From contig JACPPG010000017.1 of the NCBI GenBank assembly GCA_016191115.1, positions 1 to 64,000 on the forward strand: 64,000 bases of DNA, read 5' to 3'. The notes under the pieces are model-generated. The model searched no databases. It saw nothing but the letters and a program-made list of their open reading frames with translations, and had not been told where the DNA came from. Origin of the DNA: Planctomycetia bacterium. Lineage in GTDB: Bacteria > Planctomycetota > Planctomycetia > Pirellulales > JACPPG01. Below, one piece after another: positions 7,623 through 56,023 of the stretch. A program made the translations under genes and the position numbers. Numbering within the stretch: position 1 is the first letter of the stretch; every line of letters begins with the position of its first letter.

Positions 7623-7763
7623 CAGGGCCATTCTGTTTTTCAAAATGGCGAGGCGGGAAAATGGGACTGGCTCCGAGCATAAACAGCGCAAGTCCTTTCA
7701 GACCAACGTTGCGTCTCGGTGCCTGTCCACTTTCCCGCCGGTGCGCCGCCGGCAAGCTTGAAT
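7623..7763. mobile_element. MITE-like family 1, copy 1 (right end truncated)
   Basis: CAGGGCCATTCTGTTTTTCAAAATGGCGAGGCGGGAAAATGGGACTGGCTCCGAG...CGCCGGCAAGCTTGAAT; missing terminal TCTGTGAACGGCCCTG. Confidence 0.85.
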
Positions 7764-21975: not shown

Positions 21976-22132
21976 CAGGGTCATTCTGTTTTTCAAAATG
22001 GCGAGGCGGGAAAATGGGACTGGCTCCGAGCATAAGCAGCGCAAGCCCTTTCAGACCAACGTTGCGTCTCGGTGCCTGTCCCACTTTCCCGCCGGTACGC
22101 CGCCGGCAAGCTTGAATCTGTGAACGGCCCTG
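21976..22132. mobile_element. MITE-like family 1, copy 2 (intact, 157 bp) with 10-bp target duplication
   Basis: Imperfect TIRs CAGGGTCATTC / GAACGGCCCTG; flanked exactly by GGTCTCCGGC at 21966-21975 and 22133-22142. Confidence 0.92.
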
Positions 22133-36712: not shown

Positions 36713-36893
36713 CGTGGTCGGATCTCCTTCGGAGGACTCGATTGGCGGCTGCCCCGGCAAGTGTCGCCTGACGCCTTGCCGACGGTCAATCCACCTAAAG
36801 CGCGCCGGTTCCGCGCCGCGCGTGCGCTCGGATAGCCCGGGAGTCCTTTTTCAAACCCCGCGCGGGCCGTACAAGTGTCGGCCAATCCGGCTA

Positions 36894-37017
36894 CGGGAGA
36901 GCTGCAAAGTCCGGGGTCTGGCTCATTTTTCGGCGCACGCGGTTCTCAATTCTTCCGAAGGACCTTCGGCCGAAAAATGTGCCTGACCCCCTCTCCCAGG
37001 ACTTTGCAGTTCTCCTG
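36894..37017. mobile_element. MITE-like family 2, copy 1 (124 bp) with 11-bp target duplication
   Basis: Foldback CGGGAGAGCTGCAAAGTCCGGGGTCTGGCTCATTTTTCGGC...GCCGAAAAATGTGCCTGACCCC...GACTTTGCAGTTCTCCTG; flanked by CAATCCGGCTA at 36883-36893 and 37018-37028. Confidence 0.88.
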
Positions 37018-37028
37018 CAATCCGGCTA

Positions 37029-37185
37029 CAGGGCCATCCTGTTTTTCAAAATGGCGAGGCGGGAAAATGGGACTGGCTCCGAGCATAAACAGCGCAAGCC
37101 CTTTCAGACCAACGTTTCGTCTCGGTGCCTGTCCCACCTTCCCGCCGGTGCGCCGCCGGCAAGCTTGAATCTGTGAACGGCCCTG
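37029..37185. mobile_element. MITE-like family 1, copy 3 (intact, 157 bp) with 10-bp target duplication
   Basis: CAGGGCCATCCTG...GAACGGCCCTG; flanked by AATCCGGCTA at 37019-37028 and 37186-37195. Confidence 0.92.
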
Positions 37186-37297
37186 AATCCGGCTATCCGC
37201 GCGTTGCAACTGTTCACCCCCTGGTGGTATACTCAGCCTGCTATTTTTAGGCCATTCTCTACGGCTTGGCGGCCCTTCCTGAATCAAGGAGAGAGAG

Positions 37298-44189: not shown

Positions 44190-44330
44190 CAGGGCCATTC
44201 TGTTTTTCAAAATGGCGAGGCGGGAAAATGGGACTGGCTCCGAGCATAAACAGCGCAAGTCCTTTCAGGCCAACGTTGCGTCTCGGTGCCTGTCCCACTT
44301 TCCCGCCGGTGCGCCGCCGGCAAGCTTGAA
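44190..44330. mobile_element. MITE-like family 1, copy 4 (right end truncated)
   Basis: CAGGGCCATTCTGTTTTTCAAAATGG...GGCAAGCTTGAA then divergence. Confidence 0.85.
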
Positions 44331-45637: not shown

Positions 45638-45786
45638 CACGGCGTTCTGTTTTTCAAAATGGCGAGGCGGGAAAATGGGACTGGCTCCGAGCATAAACAG
45701 CGCAAGTCCTTTCAGACCAACGTTGCGTCTCGGTGCCTGTCCCACTTTCCCGCCGGTGCGCCGCCATCCAGCTCGAATCTGTGAAT
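45638..45786. mobile_element. MITE-like family 1, copy 5 (degenerate ends)
   Basis: TTCTGTTTTTCAAAATGGCGAGGCGGGAAAATGGGACTGGCTCCGAG core conserved; terminal CAGGGCC/GGCCCTG decayed. Confidence 0.85.
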
Positions 45787-53651: not shown

Positions 53652-53791
53652 CAGGGCCGTTCACAGATTCAAGCTTGCCGGCGGCGCACCGGCGGGAAAG
53701 TGGGACAGGCACCGAGACGCAACGTTGGTCTGAAAGGACTTGCGCTGTTTATGCTCGGAGCCAGTCCCATTTTCCCGCCTCGCCATTTTGA
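53652..53791. mobile_element. MITE-like family 1, copy 6 (inverted; left end truncated)
   Basis: CAGGGCCGTTCACAGATTCAAGCTTGCCGG...CCCGCCTCGCCATTTTGA; reverse complement of other copies. Confidence 0.85.
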
Positions 53792-55899: not shown

Positions 55900-56023
55900 C
55901 AGGAGAACTGCAACATCCTGGGAGAGGGGGTCAGGCACATTTTTCGGCCGAACGTCCTTCGGAAGAATTGAAAACGGCTTGTGCCGAAAAATGAGCCAGA
56001 CCCCGGACTTTGCAGCTTTCCTG
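55900..56023. mobile_element. MITE-like family 2, copy 2 (inverted, 124 bp) with about 9-bp target duplication
   Basis: CAGGAGAACTGCAA...GGGGTCAGGCACATTTTTCGGC...GCCGAAAAATGAGCCAGACCCC...GCAGCTTTCCTG; GCCTTCGCC at 55890-55898 (then C) and 56024-56032 (then T). Confidence 0.85.

Follow-up and report, generated by a model that had tools for sequence, protein, structure and literature searches.

Two hairpins lie at positions 36894-37185 of the window (the whole 64,000-nucleotide stretch of DNA analysed here), each inside a short repeat unit of its own. In each stem two T.T mismatches are separated by three G/C pairs (GGC), alike in the two families to which the units belong; the mismatched pairs are 36919.36984 and 36923.36980 in family 2 and 37074.37130 and 37078.37126 in family 1. 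The initial annotation had singled out this span, which does contain both hairpins but cuts the repeat units, 36894-37017 and 37029-37185. The features are:

36894..37017, + strand: family 2 MITE-like element, 124 bp, with ends CAGGAGAACTGCAAAGTCC (here CGGGAGAGCTGC...) and ...GGACTTTGCAGTTCTCCTG, from flank comparison and the target-site duplication (TSD) test
36913..36934, + strand: left arm of the family 2 hairpin, GGGGTCTGGCTCATTTTTCGGC; T 36919 and T 36923 are mismatched
36969..36990, + strand: right arm of the family 2 hairpin, GCCGAAAAATGTGCCTGACCCC; T 36980 and T 36984 are mismatched
37029..37185, + strand: family 1 MITE-like element, 157 bp, with ends CAGGGCC(A)T.. and ..GAACGGCCCTG, from flank comparison, TSD test and BLAST
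37069..37083, + strand: left arm of the family 1 hairpin, GGGACTGGCTCCGAG; T 37074 and T 37078 are mismatched
37121..37135, + strand: right arm of the family 1 hairpin, CTCGGTGCCTGTCCC; T 37126 and T 37130 are mismatched
36884..36893, unstranded: target AATCCGGCTA, copy 1, a direct repeat left of family 2
37019..37028, unstranded: target AATCCGGCTA, copy 2, left target duplication of family 1
37186..37195, unstranded: target AATCCGGCTA, copy 3, right target duplication of family 1

The arms read as first described, with CTGGCTC opposite GTGCCTG in both foldback families, and this mismatch signature is real and well beyond chance. GGNNC[AT]GGC[AT]C occurs 17 times in the window against 3.7 expected, and in the genome, a 6.03-Mb draft of which about 80% is known from pattern counts alone, CTGGCTC-N30..60-GTGCCTG[AT]CCC has 251 + 260 strict copies, with 0 for the reversed control.

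MITE units and their spread in this genome

When copies were compared together with 130-bp flanks, both units had sharp edges, at 157 bp for family 1 and 124 bp for family 2. Family 1 is made up, in order, of CAGGGCCATTCTGTTTTTCAAAATGGCGAGGCGGGAAAAT, the 67-nt hairpin and ACTTTCCCGCC...GAACGGCCCTG. The ends are CAGGGCC.. and CAGGAGAACTGC..; in both families they start with CAGG. The family 1 copy at 37029..37185 is 97.5% identical to the consensus used (BLAST), and family 1 copies in this genome are young, with a median identity of 96.8%. Six family 1 and two family 2 copies are found in the window in total, the following in addition to those above:

7623..7763, + strand: family 1 copy, right arm GTGCCTGTCCA
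21976..22132, + strand: family 1 copy, complete
44190..44330, + strand: family 1 copy
45645..45785, + strand: family 1 copy
53652..53791, - strand: family 1 copy
55900..56023, - strand: family 2 copy

The sequence AATCCGGCTA appears three times in the window (36884, 37019 and 37186), as the two elements share one target sequence. Both families have such duplications: in family 1 the 10-bp flanks of 37 copies have an identity of 0.80, where shuffled pairs reach 0.287 ± 0.026, and among lengths of 6-13 only 10 stands out. For family 2 it is 0.66 against 0.34 ± 0.04 when shuffled, over 19 hits in which the near-palindromic element may be matched on both strands, and k = 11 is raised too (0.455 vs 0.294), consistent with a one-base ambiguity of the element end. 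The units are thus short and non-coding, have terminal inverted repeats and many copies (about 500), and duplicate 10 bp of target, as expected of MITEs. HuH Y1 enzymes are not known to make such target duplications, and so it was a DDE-type transposase, not an HuH enzyme, that multiplied these copies and spread both families to several hundred places in this genome. The MITE nature of the units had been missed by the initial annotation, and a Y1 enzyme, one of the two kinds that it had suggested looking for, is not behind the spread here.

No match to PF01609 (DDE_Tnp_1) was found in the draft genome. Several contigs terminate in family 1 copies, and a parent present in many copies may thus be missing from the assembly. 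Neither an autonomous parent nor an unattached MITE end was found in 1.18 Mb, where every end copy sits in a MITE, the exceptions being one chance match and one copy at the edge of the sequence examined. We take the CAGG ends and 10-bp duplications to recall the ISAs1 or IS4 types; a literature search on 10-bp duplications of the ISAs1 type returned nothing usable. The genome has Y1 genes, but none of them carries the repeat at its flanks, as a cognate gene would; neither a cognate RAYT nor a DDE partner of the elements turned up in it.

Retention of the mismatches

For the comparison within this genome, BLAST with the entire element, which does not presuppose the core, gave 89 family 1 copies. 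The hairpin arms are the best conserved part of the element, with 7 changes in 1936 (0.36%) over 22 positions, whereas the loop has 133 in 3073 (4.3%) and the outer part 2.3%. The four mismatch positions have 3 changes in 352, all from T to C and hence still Y.Y, and never became paired, while the paired arm positions have 4 changes in 1584, a non-significant difference (p = 0.12). The initial annotation had proposed to test whether the mismatched sites are better conserved than the remaining stem, and within this genome they are not. Among rare variants only, the arms change at 0.36% and the rest at 0.88% (p = 0.018), and the mismatch sites taken alone, at 0.85%, are at the background rate (0.88%). 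Within the genome, then, the mismatches are kept but no more than the stem is, and the youth of the copies accounts for much of this.

Across Planctomycetota we ran a mismatch-neutral pattern, GGGACNGGCNC...GNGCCNGTCCC, with both sites open, first against ten genomes and also against a phylum set of 392; the cross-genome sample is accordingly drawn by patterns, from among the matches listed. Among these, 41 CTGGCTC-family elements from 12 other genomes have 81 of 82 site pairs as Y.Y and one paired. Site 6 is T.T in 33 of these matches, T.C in 6, C.T in 1 and C.C in 1, and site 10 is T.T in 36, T.C in 4 and T-A in 1. In a wider set of 53 elements from 17 genomes (the 41 together with strict-pattern elements and those of this genome) the sites are Y.Y in 53/53 and 52/53. 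Stem position 12 of this set, adjoining the second site, shows compensated changes (C-G, G-C, A-T), while at positions 13-14 the pairing is Watson-Crick in some elements and tandem G.A/A.G in others; the remaining arm positions are fixed by the search pattern and so uninformative on conservation. In G020 the inner arms, which lie outside the pattern, are 90-91% identical between copies and the loops 33-37%, with the length staying within 69-74. The original idea that the mismatches are kept rather than decaying is borne out here, as 81/82 site pairs in 12 genomes are Y.Y while the adjacent stem position compensates, and the cross-genome case for kept mismatches is stronger than the within-genome one. 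A single transition from T.T always stays mismatched and pairing needs a transversion, so part of the retention needs no selection.

The youth of the family 1 copies and the background rate of change at the mismatch sites in this genome could both be accounted for by shared ancestry only, the two mismatches of a founder palindrome having been inherited without any function. This would, however, hardly explain why, across families and orders, the sites stay Y.Y between unrelated loops and next to inner stems that are swapped with compensation, nor why arms beyond the search pattern are conserved where loops are saturated, and we regard ancestry alone as improbable.

Perfectly paired relatives exist in G456, G173 and G287, and in the GGGGTCNGGTCT family pairing varies by genome: 6/6 are paired in G015, 9/9 are T.T in G561, and G019 has three mismatched and three paired. 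Since there are such paired sister families (G456, G173, G015 and half of G019), the mismatches are not required in the whole class. About 20 elements (in G020, G024, G036 and G072) have tandem G.A/A.G, as CGAG opposite CGAG, just inside the second T.T site.

Could the hairpin act in RNA instead, as a terminator, small RNA or mRNA stabiliser, with the U.U pairs being part of an RNA structure? Both strands of the two hairpins give stable folds (z -3.9 to -8.8), and the tandem G.A/A.G beside the mismatches is a pairing common in structured RNA. Yet the copies have no preferred orientation relative to genes (24 same, 15 opposite), Rfam returned no family at gathering score and only sub-threshold matches in a permissive search, and hairpins of this type also occur inside RAYT open reading frames and in inverted pairs (see below). 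An RNA function, which the initial annotation had offered as an option, is therefore left without support; we set it aside and consider it very unlikely. By rough gene calls, 15/112 copies are inside predicted genes, though 83% of the sequence is coding. The T strand has the better predicted stability in 36/53 elements, but the two strands differ so little in folding energy that nothing was argued from it.

Related hairpins at Y1 transposase genes

Y1 genes of the RAYT/TIRYT kind in the same order have terminal repeats such as GGGGACAGGCGC, GGGGACAGGTCC and GGGGTCAGGTCTC, of the class for which De Nocera et al. give the motif GGGGWSAS (PMC3733652). At one locus (L259, in G019) the RAYT gene is flanked on both sides by complete hairpins, GAAAAAGGGGTC[T/A]GGTCTCTTTTTCG, with arms of 27-29 bp; the T/A difference falls exactly at the CTGG/CAGG position, with the T arm outermost on both sides. 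A RAYT in G024 (L127) has the same flanking plan with GGGGAC[T/A]G hairpins. In a flank comparison of more than 100 Y1 loci only L127 (= L302) and L259 (= L349) have T/A hairpins as the flanking pair, and no RAYT with the exact module as its flanking pair was found among them. In G456 a RAYT is flanked on both sides by GGGACAGGCACC hairpins, and G050 and G451 have inverted hairpin pairs with short spacers, in the same order as at L259 and L127 but without a gene.

A distant family also has hairpins of the CTGGCTC/GTGCCTG type within the reading frame of RAYT genes, one each in G188 and G261 and two in G203, always in the linker after the Y1 domain; the exact module occurs within and near the RAYT genes of these genomes, not as their end pair. 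The proteins tested belong to PF01797 and have invariant HuH and Tyr motifs throughout the alignment. In all four genes these REP-like T.T hairpins occupy the same place, between the Y1 and C-terminal domains, at L202:1334-1419, L357:1918-2018, L359:1097-1162 and L362:1729-1787.

In the genome of the window a single intact RAYT of this type was found (L113:1441-2208, on G000:C68), with near-perfect inverted ends, AAACGGGACAGGTCTAATT. These differ in detail from the high-copy hairpins and recur in G025 as tight palindromes next to another RAYT (L255). Short tandem arrays of terminal-repeat units, for example TTTTAACGACTTGACCCC and CTCTAAAAGGGGTCAGGT, occur near RAYT genes or hairpins, at L116:1008-1082, in the left flank of the L276 hairpin and in the right flank of L279. 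At L031 (G000:C42:150641) and L033 (G000:C42:95600) we noted a 150-aa IS200-like TnpA by AGCCCCGATAGGGGCGCAGGCGTGTAGCCGTGG-type repeats and a broken RAYT by GGCGGGCATCCTGCCCGCC-type repeats.

In other genomes the hairpin is present without the MITE ends described above. Flank inspection of the young related hairpins of G561 and G015 gave no target duplications, as expected of HuH movement, and for the module elsewhere duplications were undetected (0.11 vs 0.05 by chance, in 18 elements that include a few of this genome). These observations bear on the possibility that the hairpin belongs to the MITEs' own transposition system as an internal cis element, read by their transposase together with the CAGG ends, RAYTs being incidental. 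The two families, with different ends, do have CAGG termini, the 10-bp TSD and the core in common, the 1.18 Mb surveyed hold no unattached MITE end, and the arms are better conserved than either loop or outer part. That elsewhere the hairpin goes without these ends and without detected duplication, and that RAYT genes are flanked by the same asymmetry, nevertheless makes a role confined to the MITEs unlikely in our opinion.

Proposed role and comparison with known systems

The core is probably a REP/TIR-type module of Planctomycetota, GGG[A/T]C-Y-GGC-Y-C ... G-Y-GCC-Y-G[T/A]CCC, with fixed Y.Y mismatches, recognised by RAYT/TIRYT enzymes and carried here in MITEs. The module would fold once its strand is single-stranded, and the folded strand would be recognised by a Y1 HuH transposase of the RAYT/TIRYT kind; we infer this recognition, as well as the strand used and the cleavage. 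The mismatches would represent the unpaired positions that such enzymes need, and since they are Y.Y on one strand and R.R on the other, the near-palindrome would gain a polarity that may serve in strand choice. Here two copies of the module are found inside two MITE families, which may simply have captured it or may be served by it, the arms being their best conserved part.

In E. coli only the REP strand is processed by TnpA-REP, and two conserved stem mismatches are needed: restoring the pairing of the stem severely affects or abolishes activity, while other unpaired bases are tolerated, and the unpaired state outweighs base identity, with C or T moderately favoured at the contacted position (PMC8266576). 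The nearly always unpaired Y.Y series fits this behaviour, and we propose on this analogy that the two sites are read by RAYTs. Strand-specific recognition as a folded single strand therefore seems the likeliest role of the module: of the options first put forward, a protein reading one folded DNA strand is the best supported, with TnpA-REP as precedent and with RAYT genes flanked by or carrying such hairpins. One could go further and imagine a phylum-wide hairpin code, in which the Y.Y pair marks strand identity for RAYTs and DDE transposons have adopted the hairpin as an internal recognition site. We think this doubtful; if true, the result would be a composite mobile element depending on both double-strand and single-strand DNA handling.

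These hairpins bear on how REPs spread and on how RAYTs discriminate strands within a palindrome. They provide a natural series, near identifiable Y1 genes and in one phylum, of stems with two Y.Y sites, one, or full pairing, in which the role of unpaired stem positions is testable. Their presence within MITEs means that unrelated transposases can multiply REP-like sequences, which confounds copy-number arguments on RAYT activity.

Like the E. coli REPs of TnpA-REP group 2, the module is an imperfect, high-copy intergenic palindrome with two conserved unpaired stem positions (81/82 Y.Y in the mismatch-neutral set; PMC8266576). In contrast to these REPs it lacks the 5' GTAG by the stem, starting instead with GGGG/GGGA after A-rich or element-specific sequence; it has two separated single Y.Y sites instead of the adjacent AA-GC bulge of E. 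coli, and its loop is much longer (PMC8266576). Related hairpins in G019 and G024 flank a cognate tyrosine transposase gene of their own genome, which the repeat does not do here. REPs are known as two types, mismatched and perfect (PMC8266576), which the mix of mismatched and paired families resembles. Double T-T oligonucleotide structures (PMC7709200), considered as a precedent, were set aside, as their T-T pairs are at the centre of 18-mer duplexes, with no hairpin stem.

The terminal repeats of TIRtrons and TIRYT genes (De Nocera et al. 2013, PMC3733652; TnpA-REP subclass 2.1, PMC6006769) follow the motif GGGGWSAS, which the right arm of family 2, GGGGTCAG, fits; the left arm of family 2 is GGGGTCTG, and family 1 has three G only. 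The corresponding Y1 genes of this order have the ends GGGGACAGG.. and GGGGTCAGG... Repeats of the TIRtron type have been reported as single, dimeric or grouped, with REP insertions within some Y1 genes (PMC3733652; PMC6006769). The elements described here differ in the two fixed Y.Y mismatches between the arms and in being carried by DDE-type MITEs with 10-bp duplications and no cognate gene found in this genome. As in REPINs (PMC3116915), they are non-autonomous inverted repeat units in many dispersed copies, and G050 and G451 have inverted pairs; in contrast to REPINs, each unit here is a single long hairpin and its multiplication left target duplications. With the bacterial MITEs of DDE insertion sequences they share short length, lack of coding capacity, terminal inverted repeats, 10-bp target duplications and mostly intergenic location, but contain in addition a REP-like hairpin in their interior, whose conservation exceeds that of the ends.
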